A stretch of 64,000 nt of DNA from Candidatus Uhrbacteria bacterium (GTDB lineage Bacteria; Patescibacteriota; Patescibacteriia; 2-12-FULL-60-25): the NCBI GenBank assembly GCA_016222815.1, contig JACRQE010000002.1, forward strand, positions 62,001 to 126,000. The letters are read 5' to 3'. The notes beneath the pieces are model-generated. The model was not told where the DNA came from. It did no database searches and saw only the letters and a program-made list of their open reading frames with translations. The translations under genes were made by a program, and so were the position numbers. Position 1 is the first letter of the stretch. Each line of letters opens with the position of its first letter. Shown in pieces: positions 12,724 through 61,706 of the stretch.

Positions 12724-12893
12724 TGATCCTGCAGACTATACAAAATCGCTCCTGAACTAGAACGCCGCCTCTTCTTCTGGCAGACATGCCTCGAAGAGAT
12801 CCGGCGTCCCAACACTCGCCTCTGATCCTACGCAACGCTCCGGTGGACACCGGGGCGTTTTCCGTTGACGACGAAGCCTATCCCCTGACGTGC

Positions 12894-12899
12894 TATCAT
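12894..12899 (+). promoter_or_regulatory. Extended -10 element of engB
   Basis: TGC-TATCAT lies 15 bases before the ATG at 12915; no Shine-Dalgarno is present. Confidence 0.45.
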
Positions 12900-12914
12900 C
12901 AAAGTACACAATTT

Positions 12915-13484
12915 ATGAACGCCACCTTTTTGAAAAGCATCGTCAAAATCGACGATCTGCCCAAGAGCGACAGGCCGCATATCGCTTTTTTGGGGCGTTC
13001 GAACGTCGGGAAATCTTCGCTTTTGAACAGTCTCACGGGACAAAAAGGTCTGGCCAGGGTGAGCGCCACTCCGGGCAGGACGCAGACTATCAACGTGTTC
13101 GACGTGGACAAGCGTTTCTATCTCATTGACCTGCCGGGCTACGGTTATGCTAAAACCTCGAAAGTGAAACGCGTGGCGTTCGAGGGACTTCTCAACCAAT
13201 ATCTGAACAGGACGGAGAACCTTAAGCTGTCGCTGGTCATCATAGACGCGCGATTGGGTCCGACGGATATCGACCGTGAGATGTTCGCTTTCCTCGAAGA
13301 TACGCAAAAGCCTTTCGTGGTCATCGCCAACAAAACAGACAAGCTCAAAAAAACGGAGATTGCGGCTCTGACGAAGATGCTGGCCGACGACTATCCGGGA
13401 GTCACCGTGGTCCTCCACTCCAATGTGACAAACAAGGGCGCAGGAGAAATCAGGCAACTGATTGAACAGGCAATCGCCGAATGA
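12915..13484 (+). CDS. engB: Ribosome biogenesis GTP-binding protein EngB/YihA/YsxC
   Basis: A TRAFAC-class GTPase of 189 residues needed for large-subunit assembly. G1 is GRSNVGKSS, G2 lies in SATPGRTQTINVF, G3 is DLPGYGYA, G4 is NKTDK. ATG 12915 gives the normal family N-terminus (FLKSIVKIDDLPKSDRPHIAFLGRSN); the longer frame from 12786 crosses the promoter. A terminator follows. Confidence 0.93.
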   Translation: MNATFLKSIVKIDDLPKSDRPHIAFLGRSNVGKSSLLNSLTGQKGLARVSATPGRTQTINVFDVDKRFYLIDLPGYGYAKTSKVKRVAFEGLLNQYLNRTENLKLSLVIIDARLGPTDIDREMFAFLEDTQKPFVVIANKTDKLKKTEIAALTKMLADDYPGVTVVLHSNVTNKGAGEIRQLIEQAIAE

Positions 13485-13493
13485 AAATCAAAC

Positions 13494-13516
13494 CCCCGGC
13501 GAACCTGCCGCCGGGG
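13494..13516. terminator. Convergent hairpin after engB
   Basis: The stem ccccggcg / cgccgggg lies between engB and the minus-strand gene ending at 13567. Confidence 0.6.
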
Positions 13517-13566
13517 TAAGGAGAGGGCGCTTGCTTGTTAAGCCAAGACTGCGTTTTTCGTCGGCA

Positions 13567-14139
13567 TCAAGCCGGCTGGAGCTCCAGGCGGCGCATCATG
13601 ATGCGCGCCGTTTGCGTGATATTCAGCCCGCCGAAGCTATTCTCCACATCTTCGACCAGCGCTTCGATGAGAAGGTGTTGCGTGGTCGGAGCTTGCCCAT
13701 CCATGACATCAAACGTCAGGGAGTAGAGCTTGCACAAGCGGATCTCGGGCGGGGCGCTCCAGCCCAGGTCGCCGTGGCTCAAGCAGCGCAGGGAGCGGAT
13801 CATCTCCTGGATGGGCAGGGGCAGGAAGTCTGGCTTGATGCCGGTCTGGGCTTCCAGCTCGTGGTGGAGCAGGACGTCGAAGAGCTTGACCCGCAGTTCG
13901 CCATCGAGCGCAGGCTCGGAGAGGACAGCGAGCGCGCACTGGAGCGGATGGACCGCGAAGGGCGTATGCAGGTCGTGGGAGCGGACACCCTGGCGGAGCG
14001 ACAAAGCTTTTTCCTGGTGGAGCAGGGCGAGATGCATAAGCTTCTTGGCCCAGCACCAGGCCGTGTCAGGCAGGCTGGCAAACTCGAGCGGCGTGAGGCT
14101 GCGGTATCCGGTCGTGACGGTCGCGGCTGTTGTATCCAT
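13567..14139 (-). CDS. Hypothetical protein, possible HD-type hydrolase
   Basis: 190 residues from ATG 14139, chosen for GGAGGGAG upstream. The segment HTPFAVHPLQCALAVL, then KLFDVLLHHELEAQTG, resembles the HP...(A)LLHDxxED pattern of RelA/SpoT-like HD hydrolases. The canonical HD pair is replaced by HH-E, so activity is uncertain. No membrane segment. Monocistronic, flanked by hairpins. Confidence 0.55.
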   Translation of the reverse strand: MDTTAATVTTGYRSLTPLEFASLPDTAWCWAKKLMHLALLHQEKALSLRQGVRSHDLHTPFAVHPLQCALAVLSEPALDGELRVKLFDVLLHHELEAQTGIKPDFLPLPIQEMIRSLRCLSHGDLGWSAPPEIRLCKLYSLTFDVMDGQAPTTQHLLIEALVEDVENSFGGLNITQTARIMMRRLELQPA

Positions 14140-51268: not shown

Positions 51269-51277
51269 GTGGACCGT

Positions 51278-52195
51278 ATGCTCGTCACCACCAAAAAACT
51301 GCTCGTGCCGGCGCGGGCCAAGAAATACGCGGTCCCGGCGTTCAACGTCAACGATTTGGAGTTTTTGAAAGCCGTGATGTCGGCGGCAGAGAAAATGAAG
51401 TCGCCGGTCATCGTGCAGACTTCGGAAGGCGCCATCGAATATGCCGGATTGGATTATCTTGTTGCCATGATTCGCGTGGCGGCAAAGGGAAAAATCCCGG
51501 TGGCCATGCATGTTGACCACGGCAAGGATCTGAAGACCATCAAAGCCGCGCTCGACGCCGGATATTCTTCCGCCATGTTCGACGGTTCGTCGCTCCCCTA
51601 TGCCGAAAATGTGAAGAAGACACAACAGGTCGTGAAATGGGCGCGGGCCAAGGGAGCGTCGGTGGAAGCGGAGATCGGGGCGATTGCAGGTATCGAGGAT
51701 TTCGTGAGCGTGGAAGAGAAGGATGCGCATTTGACGAATCCGGCGCAAGCGCTCGAGTTCGCGAAAGAGACGGGATGTGACGCTTTGGCCATCGCCATCG
51801 GCACGGCGCACGGCGCGTACAAGTTCAAGGGAAAAACCCACTTAGACATCGACCGATTGAAGAAAATCGCCAAACTCGTGAAGGTGCCGCTCGTGCTTCA
51901 CGGCGCATCGGGAGTATTGGAGGACGTGGTTAAAATTGCGGAACATCATGGCGCCAAGCTCGGTTCAGCGCGCGGAGTATTGGACTCGGACATCAAGCAA
52001 GCAATCAAATACGGAGTAGCAAAAATAAACATCGACACGGATTTGCGCCTGGCGTTCACGGCCGGCATCCGCGAGGCGGTGGATGAGATGCCGAAAGTCA
52101 TAGACCCGCGAAAGTTGATGGAGCCGGCCAATCTTTTGATGAGGGAAGTCGCGATGCGGAAGATGAAACTTTTCGGGAGCGCCGGACGGGCTTAA
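51278..52195 (+). CDS. fba: Class II fructose-bisphosphate aldolase
   Basis: 305 residues. YAVPAFNVNDLEFLKAV, AMHVDHGKDLKTIKAALDAGYSS (shown as AMHVDHGKDL), MFDGSSLPYAENV, the zinc-binding EAEIGAIAG, IGTAHGAYK, LVLHGASG and INIDTDLRLAF are all class II signatures. Zn-dependent cleavage or synthesis of fructose-1,6-bisphosphate or a related ketose bisphosphate. ATG 51278 is preferred over GTG 51269. Confidence 0.93.
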   Translation: MLVTTKKLLVPARAKKYAVPAFNVNDLEFLKAVMSAAEKMKSPVIVQTSEGAIEYAGLDYLVAMIRVAAKGKIPVAMHVDHGKDLKTIKAALDAGYSSAMFDGSSLPYAENVKKTQQVVKWARAKGASVEAEIGAIAGIEDFVSVEEKDAHLTNPAQALEFAKETGCDALAIAIGTAHGAYKFKGKTHLDIDRLKKIAKLVKVPLVLHGASGVLEDVVKIAEHHGAKLGSARGVLDSDIKQAIKYGVAKINIDTDLRLAFTAGIREAVDEMPKVIDPRKLMEPANLLMREVAMRKMKLFGSAGRA

Positions 52196-52470: not shown

Positions 52471-53697
52471 ATGGGCGAACCCACGTTGTTCATCTACCGC
52501 GACGCCGATGACCCGCTGCCCAAGGACCCGGATTGCGTGATTCTGGGCCGCAACGGCGCTTTCCGCCATACCGCTACCGGCCTGTTCAGCCGATTCGAAA
52601 AGGCCGACGAAATACCCACGCTGGCCGAACAGGCCATGGAGGCCGTGTACCTTCTGCCTCCCCTGCCGGCGGCCATGACTCAGCAGGTGCTCAACTTCTT
52701 CCGCGAAGTGTACCGGCGCTACCACAGCGAAGCGATCGTGCTCTTGGCCTACAACCAAGCGACACAGGAGTTCGCGATCGTGGCGCCCAAGCAGGATGTG
52801 TCAGCCGGCCACTGCAAATACGAACCCAACACGGCGGTACCGAACGGCTTCATGCTGGTCGGTACGATCCACAGCCACGGCAGTTTCGGCGCCCACCATT
52901 CGGGGACCGACGTGCACGACGAAGAGTCTTTCGACGGCGTACACGTGACCTACGGCGACGTGGGTTCGGAACTCATCTCGGTCGTGGCGTCGCTCGCCGT
53001 ATCCGGTTGCCGCTTCCAGCTGGAGCCGGAACGGGTACTCGGCGGCCTGCGTTTCGTCAAAACAGAGGAACCGGAGACCGGGAAAGACACCGAGCCGGCC
53101 AAGCGAGAACCGCGTACGGGCATTGCCTTCGGGATCTGGCAGACGATCCTGGAGGGATTCGGCATCTGGAAGCCGCAGATCGAGGCGAAGAGCCGCATCC
53201 TCAATTACGCGAGTTCGGGATATGCCGTGGACTTGCCGGAAGAAGACGCCAAGCGCGCAGAACCGGATGAGGAGTGGTACAAACTCGTCACTGACGGTCG
53301 GCCTGCCATGGTGTACCACAGCACGATCTACGGCTATCCAGGCTACTTGAACCGGGACTATATCGATGACGACGACCTCGGCATCCGTATCCCCGGCCAC
53401 ATGCAGCCCCAGCCCGGCCGCAAGACAAAGAGAACCGCAATCAGGCGCACCATGGATTTGGCCGCACCTCCCGACACGACACCGCAATTCGAATCCGACG
53501 GGTACGGCGGACTGTTCCCGGATGACTGCATGGAGAGGTTCGTGGTGGCCAGGCGAAGTTTGGGCGAGACAGGAAGCGTGGAAGCCGAAAAAATGCGTAA
53601 TCCTGCGACACTCAAACCCTTGACTGGCGGGCCGGAGACTGGTAAGGAAAAAGCAGAACCTTTGACACCGGCCAACAAGGCCACAGAGGAGGACTGA
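52471..53697 (+). CDS. JAB/JAMM-domain metallopeptidase, PRTRC protein A-like
   Basis: 408 residues. An N-terminal domain (about 1-80: CVILGRNGAFRH, LLPPLPAAMTQQVLNFF) precedes a JAB domain with a complete JAMM zinc site, H134-S-H136, Ser144 and Asp147 (TIHSHGSFGAHHSGTD), then DGVHVTYGDVG. JAMM peptidases remove or mature ubiquitin-like tails. The layout, including LPPLP and a Q.....Y.P strand before the zinc site, matches PRTRC protein A. A 200-residue C-terminal extension has no recognised motif. First gene of an operon; the E1 gene starts three bases after its stop. Confidence 0.85.
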   Translation: MGEPTLFIYRDADDPLPKDPDCVILGRNGAFRHTATGLFSRFEKADEIPTLAEQAMEAVYLLPPLPAAMTQQVLNFFREVYRRYHSEAIVLLAYNQATQEFAIVAPKQDVSAGHCKYEPNTAVPNGFMLVGTIHSHGSFGAHHSGTDVHDEESFDGVHVTYGDVGSELISVVASLAVSGCRFQLEPERVLGGLRFVKTEEPETGKDTEPAKREPRTGIAFGIWQTILEGFGIWKPQIEAKSRILNYASSGYAVDLPEEDAKRAEPDEEWYKLVTDGRPAMVYHSTIYGYPGYLNRDYIDDDDLGIRIPGHMQPQPGRKTKRTAIRRTMDLAAPPDTTPQFESDGYGGLFPDDCMERFVVARRSLGETGSVEAEKMRNPATLKPLTGGPETGKEKAEPLTPANKATEED

Positions 53698-53700
53698 CGC

Positions 53701-54438
53701 ATGCAGGCCATCATCATCGGCTGCGGCGGCATCGGAAGCCACTTGGCAGGGCCACTCGCCCGCTACCTCGAATCGCTCGGTCCCGGACACAAACTGACGC
53801 TCGTGGACGGCGACAACTTCGAGGACCGCAACAAGACGCGGCAGGTCTTTGACCGGCCGGGCAACAAAGCCCAATCCGTGGCGGCCAAGCTGGCCGAAAG
53901 CCACCCCGGACTCACGGTCGACGCGGTGCCCGAGTTCATCAAACCGGACAACGCCGAGTTCATCCTGGACGAAGGCGTTTACGTGATGCTGTGCGTGGAC
54001 AACCATCCGACGCGCAAGCTGGTGTCCGAAGCGGCGGCAAGCTACCAGGACATCGCGGTCATCTCGGGAGGCAACGAGCTCGAGGACGGCATGGTCCAAA
54101 TCTACGTCCGCAAGGGCGGCGTGGACGCTACCCCGCCCCTGACCCACGACCATCCGGAAATCGCGGACCCTAAAGGCAAGGCGCCGTACGAAATGAGCTG
54201 CGAAGAACTGGCCAAGGCCGGCACGCCGCAGATCATCTTCGCCAACCTGACGGCAGCCGTGCTCATGGCCAACGCCTTTTGGCGCTTGAGCACGGATCCC
54301 GAAGGATTCCTGACGAAAACGATCGGCAAAGGCGAGTTCGCACTCGAGACCGCCTACACCGAAGTCGCATTCAACATCGGGCTGAACAAAGTCCGTCCGC
54401 GCCGGACGGCAGTGACCACAGGAGGTGATGCAGCATGA
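53701..54438 (+). CDS. E1/ThiF-like adenylating enzyme, PRTRC ThiF-type
   Basis: 245 residues. Rossmann nucleotide loop AIIIGCGGIGSHLAG, LTLVDGDNFEDRNKTRQVF with the conserved Asp/Asn/Arg, LCVDNHPTRKLV, and a candidate thioester Cys in PYEMSCEELAKAGTPQ, followed by the FANLTAAVLMANAFW helix. It should adenylate the C-terminus of the ubiquitin-like protein encoded next, whose start overlaps its stop by four bases. The terminal GGDAA is encoded by the next gene's Shine-Dalgarno and is not a ubiquitin-like tail. Confidence 0.88.
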   Translation: MQAIIIGCGGIGSHLAGPLARYLESLGPGHKLTLVDGDNFEDRNKTRQVFDRPGNKAQSVAAKLAESHPGLTVDAVPEFIKPDNAEFILDEGVYVMLCVDNHPTRKLVSEAAASYQDIAVISGGNELEDGMVQIYVRKGGVDATPPLTHDHPEIADPKGKAPYEMSCEELAKAGTPQIIFANLTAAVLMANAFWRLSTDPEGFLTKTIGKGEFALETAYTEVAFNIGLNKVRPRRTAVTTGGDAA

Positions 54439-54866
54439 ACAGAAAGTACACCCGACAGGAACTCAAGGATCTGGGTCCGACAGGCCTCTACAAGCTCGGC
54501 AAGGATGAGCTGAAGATCCCGGGCCTCGCGTCCATGAGCGACGAAGAGATCGCCAACACGGTGGTCGCGCACCTGGATGCGAAGGGCCTGCTCCTCCAAG
54601 ACGCAGCTCCGCAGACCGCCGCGGCTACAGCGGCTGTCCCGATCCCGGCCGAGGTCAACGTCTCGTACCCGCCGTACGAGACGTCCGGCAACTACGCGGG
54701 CAAGAGCTTGGCCGAGATCTACGACCAGCTGCGCGAGCCGTGGAGCATGGCCAACAACGTCCGCTGTTTCATCAACGGACAAACGGCCAACATCTCGCAT
54801 GCCACCATGCTCAAGGCCGGCGACCGAGTGGAGTTCGGCAAGCCCGCGGGCGAGAAGGGCGACTGA
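54435..54866 (+). CDS. Ubiquitin-like protein with N-terminal helical domain, PRTRC protein C-like
   Basis: 143 residues. Residues 1-52 form a small helical domain (TRQELKDLGPTGLYKLGKDE, MSDEEIANTVVAHL), reminiscent of Rho-N/SAP/LEM folds. An Ala/Pro linker leads to a beta-grasp-sized C-terminal domain (about 88-143) with SLAEIYDQLREPWSMANNV, FINGQT and LKAGDRVEFGKPAGEKGD. PRTRC C proteins end in G-x-KG. Here one extra Asp follows EKG, so JAB trimming may be needed before E1 activation. No GG tail. Confidence 0.72.
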   Translation: MNRKYTRQELKDLGPTGLYKLGKDELKIPGLASMSDEEIANTVVAHLDAKGLLLQDAAPQTAAATAAVPIPAEVNVSYPPYETSGNYAGKSLAEIYDQLREPWSMANNVRCFINGQTANISHATMLKAGDRVEFGKPAGEKGD

Positions 54867-55113: not shown

Positions 55114-58086
55114 ATGGCGAAAGAAGAAACACGCAACATCATCCTGGCCCAGGACGGCACGGCGACATACGAACGTCGGCTCCGGGTGAACGGAAAACCG
55201 GACCAACCGGCGCGCGAACGGGTCATGGAGACCAAACGCGTGGATGCGGCGGCACTCATCCCGGATTACGGCGAACTCATGGTCTTGCCGACCAACTGCC
55301 GCTTCATGCGGAGCGAGGAAGGTACGGCCGTGTTCGTCACCGAAGAACCGCCGGCATTGAGGACCGTGACCTGGCATACCGATGTCGGGGACACGGATTA
55401 CTACGAAGCGATCCGCGAACGGCTGCGCCGGAGCCAACACCATCGCCTGCTCGGCTTGAGCAAGCAGGAATTCGGCAGGCTGCTCAAAACCCAGCAGACG
55501 TTCCGGCTGGCGTTCCCCTACATCATCAAGATCTACGTCTTCAACCAAAGGTTCTTCAAGGGAGGCTGGCTGTATTTCAGGACCCAGCCGCTCACGAGCG
55601 AGCGGGACGGACTCCTGGTCTCCTGCTTGCCCAACCTGCAGGTGAACGACGGTCACATGTGCCTGACCGACCGGGTCCGCGCCATGGCCATGGGCGACAT
55701 GAATTACGCCCAGTACGTGGATGCCGTGGAGCTGGAATTCTGGTCAAGCCCGTGGAACGACCACTGGATCGAGACATTCCACGATTACGCGAAGCGCGTG
55801 CCTGAAATCGCTTCGCCGTGGGAATGGGAATACAACTCACGTGTGGACTCGAGCTTCATCCTGCGCTTGCCCTGGAGAGGCTGGGAGACGACGGTCGGCG
55901 AGCAGGTGCGGATCAGACTGGCCAACAGAGCAGAGGATACCGACACGTTCAAGTACTTCGAGACCCGCGTCAGGACAGCCGAGGCGTATGAGATCAAGCC
56001 GGCGGTGACCGTAGGCGCGACAAAACCGAGTCCGCTCCAGCGCCTGTTCCTGAACGATGGCGTAATCCTGGCCATCGGCGACCAGATATCGTTCCGGCGC
56101 AGGACGTTCGACAGCATCGCGACTGACAGGAAGTACGAGATCGAATGGTTCGGCCGGATGGATCGCAACGGCAACCGCAACGTGAAACTCAAAGACGTGG
56201 AAAAGCCCTTGCCGCTCGTGACCGACGGCTTACTGCACAGCGTGGTTCAGATCGCTCCCCCGGCGGCGCCGCCTCCGATGGAACTGACCGAGGGTGTGAT
56301 GCTCGGACAAGGTTCGATCCTGCGCTTCAAGTCCAACAACGACTGGGGCGACCTGGAGAACCGCTACTTCGCCATCGAAGAAGCGCGACGAGGCCCGCGC
56401 GGCGTCATCCTGGTCAGGCTCGCAGGAAAGAAAGAGCCGATTCCGGTGGGTGAGTTCGAGGAACTCTACCCGGGCGTCAGACTGCTTGCCGGAAAGAACG
56501 GCGAAGAGCAGACGATCGAGCTGGATGACGGAACCGTGCTCGCGGTCGGCGACGAACTCGCCTACTACGACGGTCGGACGTACGCGGAATCGATAATCAA
56601 GTCCTTCACGCCCGTGGGAAACGGCGTCAAAAGGCGCATACTGGTCATGGAAAACGGGAGGGAGCTGGAAGCCGAAACGGACAAAGGTACGTTCGGCAAC
56701 TGGTTCGCCAAGACGGCAGACTGCCGGAAGACCGAGATTACGGTCGGAAAGACGGTCATCCGACCGGGCGACAGCTTCAAGTGGCCCGAAGGGAACCTGA
56801 CGATCGATGCATTGGCGCAGTTCGGGCCGGACCGATCAGTCTTCGGCCTCAAGGGCAACAAGACATGGATCATGTTGGCCATGAACGGAAAGTTCGTCCA
56901 GGGCGTCAAACCCGTCATCAAGCCCAAGCTCGACGGCGCCAACCTGGTCATTGGCCACGAGACCTACGAACCTGGATACGCGTTCTTCGACAAGGAAGCG
57001 TGCCGGGTACGTGTGGCCGCATCTTACGGCATCCGCATTTGGTCTTCGGTCGCACTGGTGGAAGCCAACGGCAAAGAAATCGAATTCGCCAAAGACGGCG
57101 AGATGGTCAACCACCTCGAACGTGTCGACCTGACGCTCCAACTGCCTGACGGCCGGGAGATCCACCGCGGACAAAGACTGCGTCTCACGACCGACATCCA
57201 GGACTTCAAGGCCGGCAAGCGATTCGCAGTCTCGCACATCCAGCGAGACGGGAAGAAACTGGTCGTCCTGTCCGAAGGCCTGGGCTTCGAAGCCACGGCC
57301 GAGAACCTGACGTACTTCGAAGAACGGCGGGGAACCGAGTGGCGGTTGCTGGCAGACCTGCCAGAGAAACCGGCGCCCAAGCCACGAAAGAAAGTCCATC
57401 CGAAGTTTGGCGAGCGCTGCGCGGTTAGGTACTTGGGCGGCGACGCGTCGAACAGGTTCATCGAACTGGGCAGTGAAGAGACGGCCAAGACCCTGCCGGC
57501 AAAAATCGTGGACTGGAGATCGGAGGATCTCGCCAAGGTCGATTTCGGACAACGCTTTCCCGGAACGCACTGCGGTAATTGCGGAAACTGCGGCGGAAGC
57601 TGCGCTTGGATCAGCACGAAGTACCTGGTGAAGAACCTGGGAGGCTTGGATGGTCCGGCCCTCATGGAACTCGAGCGGGTATTTTACAAGCACGGCGGGG
57701 GCGCGCGATTTGTCCAATCCGTCGGGATGATCGTGGCCAGGGATGCGGGAGAGACGCCAATCCGCATAGGCGACCGGGTGAAAATCAGAAATATCGGCAA
57801 TCCGAGAGGGCTGCCGAACAGTGAGGTCGAAGGCCGGTACGAGAAGGGCCAAAGGAAGTTTTTGGCCGGTGCGGCATTCACGGTGGTCCATGCCGGCGAC
57901 AACTCGGCCGGGACATGGCTTTACCTGGATGCAGGCGAAGATGTCGGGTCGCCAGACAGAAGCCGGGATGACTTGATCGGATTGGGCGAAATCCCGAGTG
58001 AACTCCGGCAGGATAAAACGTGGTGGGCCAGACTGATCTACGTCCTGTCCCACTGCGTAGTCGTTGAACAAAGCAAGGGAGGCTGA
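55114..58086 (+). CDS. Giant E2-like protein with repeated beta modules and a Cys cluster
   Basis: 990 residues from ATG 55114, where GAGGAG is seven bases upstream; the TTG at 55093 is rejected. Residues about 90-250 look like a prokaryotic E2: a hydrophobic IIKIYVFNQRF strand, SCLPNLQVNDGHMCL with a candidate active Cys183, then ELEFWSSPWNDHW. This matches the PxxN...DGxxC...W...S pattern of PRTRC B/Prok-E2 families. About six tandem modules of 65-78 residues follow (313-740), each opening like DGVxLxxGDxxxF and probably forming small beta barrels. A C-x2-C-x2-C-x3-C cluster (CGNCGNCGGSC, about 820-830) precedes a last module (IRIGDRVKIRN). Confidence 0.65.
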   Translation: MAKEETRNIILAQDGTATYERRLRVNGKPDQPARERVMETKRVDAAALIPDYGELMVLPTNCRFMRSEEGTAVFVTEEPPALRTVTWHTDVGDTDYYEAIRERLRRSQHHRLLGLSKQEFGRLLKTQQTFRLAFPYIIKIYVFNQRFFKGGWLYFRTQPLTSERDGLLVSCLPNLQVNDGHMCLTDRVRAMAMGDMNYAQYVDAVELEFWSSPWNDHWIETFHDYAKRVPEIASPWEWEYNSRVDSSFILRLPWRGWETTVGEQVRIRLANRAEDTDTFKYFETRVRTAEAYEIKPAVTVGATKPSPLQRLFLNDGVILAIGDQISFRRRTFDSIATDRKYEIEWFGRMDRNGNRNVKLKDVEKPLPLVTDGLLHSVVQIAPPAAPPPMELTEGVMLGQGSILRFKSNNDWGDLENRYFAIEEARRGPRGVILVRLAGKKEPIPVGEFEELYPGVRLLAGKNGEEQTIELDDGTVLAVGDELAYYDGRTYAESIIKSFTPVGNGVKRRILVMENGRELEAETDKGTFGNWFAKTADCRKTEITVGKTVIRPGDSFKWPEGNLTIDALAQFGPDRSVFGLKGNKTWIMLAMNGKFVQGVKPVIKPKLDGANLVIGHETYEPGYAFFDKEACRVRVAASYGIRIWSSVALVEANGKEIEFAKDGEMVNHLERVDLTLQLPDGREIHRGQRLRLTTDIQDFKAGKRFAVSHIQRDGKKLVVLSEGLGFEATAENLTYFEERRGTEWRLLADLPEKPAPKPRKKVHPKFGERCAVRYLGGDASNRFIELGSEETAKTLPAKIVDWRSEDLAKVDFGQRFPGTHCGNCGNCGGSCAWISTKYLVKNLGGLDGPALMELERVFYKHGGGARFVQSVGMIVARDAGETPIRIGDRVKIRNIGNPRGLPNSEVEGRYEKGQRKFLAGAAFTVVHAGDNSAGTWLYLDAGEDVGSPDRSRDDLIGLGEIPSELRQDKTWWARLIYVLSHCVVVEQSKGG

Positions 58087-58091
58087 CCAAG

Positions 58092-58946
58092 ATGTTCCCT
58101 CTGCAACTCAAACGGACGACTGACCAGCCGGCACCGACGGGACAGATAACCTACATCGCGGCCAAGAACGGCATCTTCATGCACAAGCGCACGGCCGTGT
58201 TCGCGGCTACGGTCAGGGCCAAGGAATTGCCCATGCTGTTGACGGTGCCGTCGGGGCTGGAGTTCAACCTCCCGCCCCTGCCGGCAGTGCATGCGGCCTA
58301 CCTGCTGGACTTCTTCCAGCAGGCGAGGAACCTGACCGAATGCACACCCGTGGTCATGCTCTGGCACAAGGCGGGCAAGGGTTACCAAATCCAAATCCCG
58401 ATACAGACTTCGGGCTACAACAGGACGACGCTGGCGTACGAGCCGAACTTCAAAGCCTTCGAAGAACAGGATGTCAGCTTCGTCGGCATCGCGACGGCAA
58501 TACCCTACTACCGGAACGCGACATCAGCGGTCGACGAACTGGTAGCCAAGCTGCCGAAGCCGCTGCTCATCCTGGCCTACCGCCTAGACAGCCCGAACAA
58601 ACTCAACCTGGAAGCGCTAGTCCAGGTCGAGAGCCAAGGACTTCTGCACATCAGAGCGCAGAAAGTCGTCAGCGGATTGGTCGAGGTCAAGGAAGGCGCG
58701 GGCGGACCAGGAACTTTCGTGTCAGTGAACCACGCCAGGACCCACGACCGCATCGTCCTGCCGAAAGAACATGCGGACGCCGTGATCAAGGCGCCGCACA
58801 AGTGGCTCGAGCGGGTCCGGGTGAACCGCTGGGACTCACGGGTCGGCCGCATGGCCGACGTTCCGATCACCGAGATCCCAAGCCTGTACAGCTACAGCGG
58901 ACCGCCGAAGTTCGTTGCACGGTACTGCACCAAGCCTCACAAGTGA
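58092..58946 (+). CDS. JAB-like protein lacking the JAMM zinc ligands (pseudo-JAB)
   Basis: 284 residues, five bases after the E2-like gene. It aligns along its first 160 residues with the active JAB at 52471: NGIFMHKRTAVF to NGAFRHTATGLF, NLPPLPAVHAAYLLDFF to LLPPLPAAMTQQVLNFF, LAYEPN to CKYEPN. At the zinc site VGIATAIPYY replaces VGTIHSHGSF, so both His are lost, and the Ser/Asp pair is also gone. It is probably a non-catalytic binder of the ubiquitin-like protein or partner of the active JAB. The C-terminal half is not recognised. Confidence 0.72.
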   Translation: MFPLQLKRTTDQPAPTGQITYIAAKNGIFMHKRTAVFAATVRAKELPMLLTVPSGLEFNLPPLPAVHAAYLLDFFQQARNLTECTPVVMLWHKAGKGYQIQIPIQTSGYNRTTLAYEPNFKAFEEQDVSFVGIATAIPYYRNATSAVDELVAKLPKPLLILAYRLDSPNKLNLEALVQVESQGLLHIRAQKVVSGLVEVKEGAGGPGTFVSVNHARTHDRIVLPKEHADAVIKAPHKWLERVRVNRWDSRVGRMADVPITEIPSLYSYSGPPKFVARYCTKPHK

Positions 58947-59076: not shown

Positions 59077-59712
59077 ATGGGTAAGGAAGCTCCAAGACCA
59101 AGAAGCTTGTGCAGGGCCAAACAGGAACTCGAGCGGCTGGCAGCCGAATATCCGACCGGCGGTAAAGCCCGGACGCGGGTGCGCTACTTTGCGGCCGCGG
59201 TCAGACGCGGCATGAAGATCCACGCGGCATACGGATCCGACAAGCCGGAGCTGTTCGGAAAAATCGGCCTTTCGGTCGGCGTCTCGGCGGAACTGCTGGA
59301 GACTTGGACCAAACCCACAAGCCGCGTGCATCGCGATTTCCATTTCGCAGTACTGATGTGCCAAGCGAGCCTGATGAACGAACACGTCTTCGCGTGCACC
59401 AAGGTCATGGAACATCTGAGGCTCCATCTGAATGCCGACGACTGGCGAGGCGAACTCGGGGCCTTTGTCCATCTGCGCAAGATCGGCCTCAAGGCTTTGA
59501 TCCGCTACGGCGGAGCCGGGACCGTGGAGTTGATCGAGGAACTGCGCGCCGTGGAAGAGGATGAGCCCGCGGACACTCCGATCGAGAGCCGGAGGCTGAT
59601 CCTGACTTTGATGGCCGATGCCCTGCAGGAAGCGATCGGGACACCGGAGGAAAGGTATGGCGAAGAAATCGGCACCGAATTGACCGGTGCGAGACCCGAA
59701 CTACTGAATTAG
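59077..59712 (+). CDS. Hypothetical helical protein, 211 aa
   Basis: Start ATG 59077 follows GGAGAAGG, and a TTGGCA-17-TACTTT promoter lies upstream, within the longer frame to 58915. Basic N-terminus, mostly helical, C-terminal acidic stretch (VEEDEPADTP). No motif recognised. It follows the ubiquitin-like cassette on the same strand but has its own promoter, so a link is only positional. Confidence 0.62.
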   Translation: MGKEAPRPRSLCRAKQELERLAAEYPTGGKARTRVRYFAAAVRRGMKIHAAYGSDKPELFGKIGLSVGVSAELLETWTKPTSRVHRDFHFAVLMCQASLMNEHVFACTKVMEHLRLHLNADDWRGELGAFVHLRKIGLKALIRYGGAGTVELIEELRAVEEDEPADTPIESRRLILTLMADALQEAIGTPEERYGEEIGTELTGARPELLN

Positions 59713-59847
59713 TCCCCAAGCCCGGAAGCAAACTGCATTCCGGGCTTTTCCTTTTTGGATGCATTGACAAAAATCGCAAAATCTGGAAAATTAACCTATC
59801 GCCCTTTGCCATAAGAATTTTGCTCAACCAAGCCGAGGAAAAAGGAC

Positions 59848-60696
59848 ATGAACGAGAGCACTGCTCTGACCCACGCCGAAACCGACAGCAAGTCCGACGA
59901 AGCGCTGGCCGAGGAGGCGAAAGCCCACCTGGCACAGCACCCCGAACTGCAGACCGTGGTCGAGTTCATCCAGGTCATCCGGAATGTCGACCTGACGGAG
60001 CTCAATGCCGAAAAGCGACGGGCCCTGTTGCCCGCTACCGAACGCATGCATGCGCTGACCCAGCGGAGGGATCTGCGGGGAACGGCGACGTCGGTCCTGA
60101 CCCGCGTCCCCGAGGACGCGGCTTACGGGATGTCCCCGGACTTCCAGGCTTCGCTCATCAACCAGGTGGTGGACGCCTGCAAGACGACCGAGGACTTCGA
60201 CAAGGCGTTCGCGCCCGAAGACCTGGCGGTCTACGTGGACGGAGCGCTCCTCATGCACAGCCACTGGGCGCAGTTCCGCTGGGAGCAGGATGATGATCCG
60301 CACCGCGACGTGGTGGCGAGCTTCATCGAATCCCTCCTGGCCGACCGTGAGGGGTACGTCCTGGACGGGAAGTCCGTGGAACTCGAGTCCATCCTGAAGC
60401 CCTGGGATGTCCTGAACGTGATCGACGTGGACGTGCTGCTCGACTGCTTGCCGCGCGAGATCCAGAAGAAGCTGTTCAAGGCGTGGCACACCTGGGAAGC
60501 GCAGCACGTGGACGAGGCATGGCACGCCCTGGACTACATCGATATCGCGACGCCGCGGATCTTGGTCCAGCACATCAAGCTGGCGGACCTGAAGGGCGTG
60601 GTGATGCTCGGGATGGAGCGCATGGGTTTCGTGCCGAAGCAGAAACCGGCGGAAGACAAGCCGGCGGAAGCGGAAGAGCAAAACCCAAAAGCATAG
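59848..60696 (+). CDS. Hypothetical protein (zero-frame product), possible frameshift partner
   Basis: 282 residues; start supported by AAAAAGGAC. Acidic and helical, with a Trp/His-rich middle (ALLMHSHWAQFRWEQDDD) and a charged Lys/Pro/Glu tail (KQKPAEDKPAEAEEQNPKA) at the stop. The last codons contain CCCAAAA (60684-60690) in the phase C-CCA-AAA, two codons before TAG. A -1 shift there would join it to the next frame, giving about 619 residues. Confidence 0.65.
   Translation: MNESTALTHAETDSKSDEALAEEAKAHLAQHPELQTVVEFIQVIRNVDLTELNAEKRRALLPATERMHALTQRRDLRGTATSVLTRVPEDAAYGMSPDFQASLINQVVDACKTTEDFDKAFAPEDLAVYVDGALLMHSHWAQFRWEQDDDPHRDVVASFIESLLADREGYVLDGKSVELESILKPWDVLNVIDVDVLLDCLPREIQKKLFKAWHTWEAQHVDEAWHALDYIDIATPRILVQHIKLADLKGVVMLGMERMGFVPKQKPAEDKPAEAEEQNPKA
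60684..60690 (+). promoter_or_regulatory. Candidate -1 ribosomal frameshift heptamer
   Basis: CCCAAAA fits X-XXY-YYZ exactly in the zero frame and is followed by GCA-TAG. GC-rich sequence able to pair lies a few bases downstream (gtccggggg...). Confidence 0.5.
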
Positions 60697-61706
60697 AAGC
60701 GTCCGGGGGTATCGAAACCGGTCCGCCCGAAGTGGCGGCCGGCCAAGCGCCCCAGGACGCCGATGCGCTACCTTCCGCAGAACTCGGCGACGACGACCTG
60801 GAATGGGTCGACGGAGAGAAAGGGAATGACCTTGCCGAGACGGTCAGGCCTGAAGCCCTGCCGACAGACGGACCGGCATCACCTGACGCAACCCAACCGG
60901 CGGCAGACGCAAGCCTGGTCAGCAATGACTGGGCGAGCCCTCCGATCAAGGATGAGCTGAGCGAAGTCCAGGCGACAGGCTCATCCCGCGACTTGCCGGG
61001 CGTGGATCCCGAGGCCAGCGCGGTGGTGGAACTCGCGTTCGAAGAGATGACGAAGAAACCTGCACCGGAGTCGCCGGACTTGAGCGCCACGATCACCGTG
61101 GAAGAGGCGGATGGCGACGAGGTCGACGATGACAGCCAGTTCGAAGACTCGCCCCAAACGCCGAGCGATCAGACTACCGCTGGTGGCGAGGGTACCAACC
61201 TCTCCAAAGAGATTCCGGAACGCGAGAAGAGCGACCCGGCGACTCTCCAAGTCAGGGAGGCGAGCTGCATTCCGATCAGCGACTTCGACAACGCACCGCG
61301 TGCGCCCGGAGCCAGCGTGCCGCCGCCGGACGAGAAGAGGTCGGCACAATCGCTCATGGCCATCTCGACGCTGATCAAGCTCGCGGACATGGTCGGGCAT
61401 CAGCTCTCGGAAGAGAATCAGTCCATGGACGACGCCCATGTTGCGGCGCTCAAGACCCTGCTCATCGACGGCAAGTGGCCGGAGGACGAAGACTTGGCAC
61501 GCGGCGCCATCATCGCCCTGATGATCGAAATGCATCCCTTCTACGCCAAACAGCGCAAGAAGTGGCCTGATAAGCCGTTCGCGGAGCTGCGCAGATTGCT
61601 CCTCGACGAGCTGGGCAAGAGCAAGATTCCGCCGCTCAAGCGGTTGGCCAAGGTCCTTTCCGCAGTCCCGCCGCCCATACCCAAGAGCGTGCGGCCCAAC
61701 AAGTAG
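60690..61706 (+). CDS. Hypothetical protein in the -1 frame, no start codon of its own
   Basis: 338 codons to TAG 61704-61706. The frame continues the acidic, Pro/Ala/Glu/Asp-rich character of the preceding tail. It ends in a compact helical domain (about the last 110 residues: LMAISTLIKLADMVGHQL, GAIIALMIEMHPFYAKQR, FAELRRLLLDELGKS). There is no ATG near the junction; the first clear in-frame ATG is near 61047. It is either made by -1 frameshifting or reflects a sequencing error joining one gene. Confidence 0.55.
   Translation, partial: SIEASGGIETGPPEVAAGQAPQDADALPSAELGDDDLEWVDGEKGNDLAETVRPEALPTDGPASPDATQPAADASLVSNDWASPPIKDELSEVQATGSSRDLPGVDPEASAVVELAFEEMTKKPAPESPDLSATITVEEADGDEVDDDSQFEDSPQTPSDQTTAGGEGTNLSKEIPEREKSDPATLQVREASCIPISDFDNAPRAPGASVPPPDEKRSAQSLMAISTLIKLADMVGHQLSEENQSMDDAHVAALKTLLIDGKWPEDEDLARGAIIALMIEMHPFYAKQRKKWPDKPFAELRRLLLDELGKSKIPPLKRLAKVLSAVPPPIPKSVRPNK

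Follow-up and report, generated by a model that had tools for sequence, protein, structure and literature searches.

The Ubl cassette and its final gene

The window, a 64,000-nucleotide stretch of the Candidatus Uhrbacteria bacterium contig JACRQE010000002.1 (positions 62,001 to 126,000), contains a same-strand cassette in the order JAB-E1-Ubl-E2-dJAB, where Ubl is a ubiquitin-like protein and dJAB a candidate dead JAB/JAMM paralogue, with a GGAG-type ribosome site before each of the five genes. The first (52471-53697, + strand) encodes a PRTRC_A-like JAB/JAMM peptidase of 408 residues, predicted to be active, with E87, H134, H136, S144 and D147 present, which matches PRTRC_A at E=1.5e-8 (below cut-off) and Prok-JAB at 3.6e-5 (just below cut-off). 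It is followed by an E1-like ThiF protein (53701-54438, +; 245 residues) bearing GxGGxG, R47-Q48, K56, D100 and Cys167, the latter invariant in 50 of 50 relatives and the other motif residues nearly all so. The Ubl (54435-54866, +; 143 residues) ends in ...EFGKPAGEKG-D, its relatives share a K(P/A/S)(A/S)GxKG end with usually zero or few residues past the Gly, and this C-terminus would suit maturation by the JAB. The E2-like protein (55114-58086, +; 997 residues) is related to Prok-E2_D, which is matched weakly by one of its relatives, and has an LPN...GHMCL catalytic Cys motif in its N-terminal E2 domain; in the non-redundant set, five E2-like domains are without the catalytic Cys, which all the others have. 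Its C-terminal region of ~650 residues contains a CGNCGNCGGSC (CxxCxxCxxxC) cluster near the end. Judged by these residues, the cassette is complete, the E1, E2, Ubl and JAB all having their catalytic residues or terminal Gly.

The final gene, dJAB (58092-58946, +; 284 residues from an ATG start), starts 5 bp beyond the E2 stop codon, the active JAB lying 4.4 kb upstream. It has a strong Shine-Dalgarno site (GGGAGG), a positional G+C (0.61/0.42/0.81) equal to that of the neighbouring genes, and neither stops nor frameshifts in 284 codons. The open frame, ribosome site and normal codon pattern show that the gene is real, in agreement with the preliminary description of a 284-residue protein, and support the view that a long, uninterrupted coding frame has been kept. 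That dJAB is kept next to the active copy was accurate in that both lie in one operon-like cassette, but the two are not adjacent, with E1, Ubl and E2 in between. Its occurrence in one genome only could suggest that a sequencing error, a compensated frameshift or mis-assembly made an active JAB look dead. This is very improbable, however, as dJAB differs from the window JAB along its entire length (23% identity), the ORF that overlaps it in another frame has no HSH motif, and the flanks are continuous.

Relationship to JAB and loss of catalytic residues

In BLASTP, residues 4-119 of dJAB aligned with the active JAB at 30% identity (E=1e-12), and HHalign against a 41-member JAB profile matched residues 1-108 (98.6%, E=5e-16) with the alignment ending there, as the HMMER match likewise did at residue ~108. 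The NG.F, LPPLP...FF and YEPN landmarks of JAB, previously noted as shared, are indeed present. For residues 109-284 there was no significant ordinary sequence similarity to JAB (HHalign, profile alignment), and profile alignments of the C-terminal half (109-215), whether free-end or anchored, scored at chance level, because the catalytic columns dominate the JAB profile. Residues 130-202 align almost gaplessly, with length preserved, to JAB residues 129-196. Under ordinary scoring, this alignment was matched by 15 of 1000 shuffles and 26 of 1000 real segments (p about 0.02); under masked scoring, with the catalytic and structural motif columns of the JAB profile set to zero, it reached z=4.3 when compared with shuffles and z=4.1 when compared with unrelated real segments, and none of 2000 in either set attained it, values somewhat flattered by the choice of stretch ends and masked columns after inspection of the alignment. 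On the sequence alignment, residues 1-108 would correspond to the N-terminal region plus the first part of the MPN fold, and 130-202 to its second part. dJAB is a homologue of the JAB/MPN domain whose second half is recognisable only with the catalytic columns masked, and the proposed correspondence to the first 200 residues of JAB is significant for residues ~1-120, that of 130-202 being weak unless the masking is applied.

The zinc-site stretches of JAB and dJAB, VGTIHSHGSFGAHHSGTD and VGIATAIPYYRNATSAVD, align without gaps. Whereas E87, H134, H136, S144 and D147 of the window JAB are invariant in 41 of 41 family members, the JAMM residues E87, H134 and H136 are replaced in register in dJAB by T85, T135 and I137. 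Further in-register substitutions are S135 to A136, H143 to T144, D150 to V151, E151 to A152, H158 to L159, T160 to L161 and G162 to Y163, and most other family-invariant positions are also lost. Kept in the gapless register are Q105, G132, S145 and D148, the last two being the motif Ser and Asp, so that the earlier view of the Ser/Asp ligands as gone has to be corrected; the change from VGTIHSHGSF to VGIATAIPYY was correctly described, with both His gone. The E-x(n)-H-S/T-H-x7-S-x2-D motif, complete in the upstream JAB, is unmatched in dJAB. A JAMM site without its Glu base and two His ligands cannot work, according to established JAMM chemistry. Because dJAB has neither the Glu that acts as general base nor two of the three zinc ligands, it would be unable to bind the catalytic zinc or activate water, and family homology together with these losses supports its designation as a catalytically dead JAB paralogue.

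The evidence that dJAB has preserved the MPN core despite losing the active site is good, though indirect. Alternatively, the C-terminal two thirds of dJAB may no longer be MPN, a JAB-type N-terminal docking region having been joined to a replaced or refolded effector part, as could be surmised from where the HHalign and HMMER matches end and from the chance-level profile alignment of residues 109-215. We consider this quite unlikely in view of the masked alignment of residues 130-202, which beats 2000 of 2000 shuffles and as many real segments, and of the Ser and Asp kept in register.

Distribution, insertion and gene order

Members of the JAB family occur in nine other genomes of the class, on 11 GTDB contigs (partly from the same genomes) and on 34 IMG/VR contigs, with two in genome G482. 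HxHx7SxxD is intact in all ~50 other members, which come from Patescibacteria and IMG/VR contigs; the L030 JAB and both L070 JABs have the motif in the FHSH form and are active-type. An orthologue of dJAB was sought in 96 relatives, in 379 genomes of the phylum and 41 of the order, and among plasmids and viral contigs, and none was found. dJAB is so far known from a single genome, and its ligand loss from that one sequence.

To the left of the cassette lies a class II fructose-bisphosphate aldolase gene (51269-52195, +), 90-92% identical in same-genus genomes without the cassette, and to the right three genes beginning at 59077, 59848 and 60666 (59077-61706, +), whose homologues directly follow the aldolase in same-genus genomes. 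In two of these, G001 and G003, the aldolase is followed by homologues of 59848 and 60666 (that of 59077 being detected in G001 only), and JAB, E1, Ubl, E2 and dJAB are all undetectable in the interval between the aldolase and the right flank. The cassette is inserted in the source genome and is absent from the rest of its order. Since the whole order is without dJAB, its gain by transfer into the source genome is the simplest reading. Among the IMG/VR loci (L034-L067), complete or near-complete E2-JAB-E1-Ubl cassettes occur on viral-classed contigs of up to 527 kb, for example at L039 7551-12259, where the genes that come next match phage multisubunit RNA polymerase families, and at L064 7405-12219, with a second ThiF-family protein encoded downstream of the Ubl gene (12868-13755). 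An E2-JAB-E1 cassette of the same family is also present in a Heimdallarchaeota-labelled MAG (L024); the contig is 4.9 kb long, and its placement in an Asgard archaeon bin may be a binning error.

The commonest gene order is E2-JAB-E1-Ubl (27 of 49 loci), and an E2 is followed by a JAB within 300 bp in 39 cases in the 49 loci, the E2-dJAB pair of the window included; dJAB fills the slot behind E2 where the active JAB usually stands. Phylogenetically, the window JAB groups with that of L014 (support 98/94), whereas dJAB is unplaced, with an end branch of 4.8 changes per column, and its position as sister to the window JAB was not rejected (AU p 0.24). L014, the nearest relative of the window JAB, has two E2s; as to one old E2 duplication common to the window and L014, pairwise scores put the two L014 E2s nearest to each other, and the tree does not decide the branching among the three. 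In G482, an intact tandem, E2-JAB-E1-E2-JAB-E1, occupies L070 2-5871, with all JABs and E2s of the active type and no clear Ubl gene found beside it. Given this intact tandem, dJAB may have been the second JAB in an old tandem cassette from which other parts have since gone.

Such an origin raises the alternative that dJAB is a remnant of a tandem cassette duplication (E2-JAB-E1-Ubl-E2-JAB...) that has no selected function and is drifting towards loss. The G482 tandem, the two E2s of L014, and the singleton status and very long branch of dJAB all fit this account, but we regard it as unlikely on account of the 284 codons free of stops or frameshifts, the strong Shine-Dalgarno site, the neighbour-like codon pattern, and a protein similarity that is recognisable after large divergence and confined mostly to one region. 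That this similarity is still detectable on a branch of 4.8 changes argues against a decaying pseudogene.

Possible role of dJAB and comparison with known systems

We propose that dJAB is probably a non-catalytic JAMM pseudoenzyme within a complete, horizontally acquired Ubl cassette, binding the Ubl/E2 and/or the JAB. In the pathway envisaged, the JAB would mature the Ubl by removing the residue past its terminal Gly and/or deconjugate it, the E1 would activate it and the E2 transfer it. dJAB, as a second and strongly diverged JAB copy that has kept the N-terminal region and, by inference, the MPN core, could dock through that N-terminal region on the usual partner of the JAB family, namely the E2-like protein encoded upstream and/or the active JAB, while its MPN surface would hold the Ubl or Ubl-E2 without cleavage. 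It might then act as a scaffold for conjugation, a receptor of tagged proteins or a competitor of the active JAB. Because a JAB normally stands directly behind E2 and dJAB occupies that slot, gene order favours the E2-like protein (or Ubl-E2) as partner at least as much as the JAB.

In the heterodimer suggested by the preliminary description, by analogy with Rpn11-Rpn8, dJAB would chiefly serve as partner of the active JAB, keeping it in an active or regulated state. The two are paralogues encoded in one cassette on one strand, conservation in dJAB is highest in the N-terminal region common to JAB, and Rpn8 provides a eukaryotic precedent for an inactive homologue (PMC6043591). This arrangement nonetheless seems somewhat improbable, given that the ~50 other family JABs have no detectable dead JAB partner, that gene order indicates E2 rather than JAB, and that the archaeal CsRpn11 works by itself and is a monomer in solution (PMC6043591).

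The case for dJAB as a pseudoenzyme is strengthened by a parallel among the E2s. In Uhrbacteria family f46, whose cassette order is JAB-E1-Ubl-E2-E2, the first E2 has the catalytic Cys and the second does not, the Cys being replaced by F in L015 (2351-4456, - strand), by V in L017 (1852-4857, -), L020 (14951-17671, +) and L030 (14423-17116, +), and by S in L091 (5718-8453, -). These Cys-less E2s cluster as a single group (SH-aLRT 91) whose lineages are separated by more than one change per column, and the predicted catalytic loss is conserved across at least four divergent Uhrbacteria genomes, unlike that of the singleton dJAB. They are possible bacterial counterparts of UEV/Mms2. Tentatively, and with more doubt than confidence, we suggest that in the Ubl cassettes of Patescibacteria a dead paralogue has repeatedly come to accompany an active enzyme as a working non-catalytic subunit, yielding independently arisen counterparts of Rpn8 and Mms2/UEV. 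Were both the active and dead JABs and the active and dead E2s of its relatives true pairs, such pairs would evolve easily as soon as a Ubl pathway is in place, and if the pseudoenzyme reading is true, the window cassette would offer a five-protein system for probing the role of a dead JAB.

None of the named anti-phage systems fits the cassette, the E1 alone matching PADLOC E1-E2 models, weakly. Like the PRTRC cassette (TIGR03735/03736) and the row 6d Ubl-JAB-E1-E2 operon (PMC1779556; Iyer et al., 2006), it brings together a PRTRC_A-like JAB, a ThiF-type E1, a Ubl and a Prok-E2_D-type E2, but it differs from both by the long C-terminal region of its E2 and the extra dead JAB. Its JAB (34.4 bits against a cut-off of 101.8) and E1 (41.8 against 144.75) are distant relatives of the PRTRC proteins, and no model for the PRTRC ParB-related protein or proteins B, C, E and F matched among the seven proteins scanned (52.4-60.7 kb), so that neither by cut-offs nor by partner proteins within this interval does it qualify as a PRTRC system. 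The Ub/E1/E2/JAMM set of the prokaryotic operon in Caldiarchaeum subterraneum is likewise comparable, its JAMM, CsRpn11, maturing and removing the modifier but acting alone, and active/inactive MPN pairing was stated in 2018 as not known in archaea (PMC6043591). Similar in having a non-catalytic pathway enzyme in a bacterial Ubl operon are the row 6e polyUbl operons, with inactive E2-like (RWD-like) domains thought to bind Ubl (PMC1779556); there the dead fold is an E2, in another operon type, whereas in the window it is a JAB.

The openly licensed literature yielded no description of a bacterial Ubl operon with a dead JAB, and a working/dead JAB pair in a prokaryote has apparently been unreported before. 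The pairing of active and inactive MPN proteins is a hallmark of the proteasome lid, the COP9 signalosome and eIF3, and is usually considered to have arisen in eukaryotes. Rpn11-Rpn8, CSN5-CSN6 and eIF3h-eIF3f are paralogous MPN pairs in which at least one member is without the zinc site. The two JAB proteins of the window resemble them as paralogous JAB/MPN proteins in one complex or pathway, but differ in belonging to a bacterial E1-E2-Ubl operon in one genome, in being at most a putative heterodimer, and in dJAB having no Rpn8-specific sequence relation.
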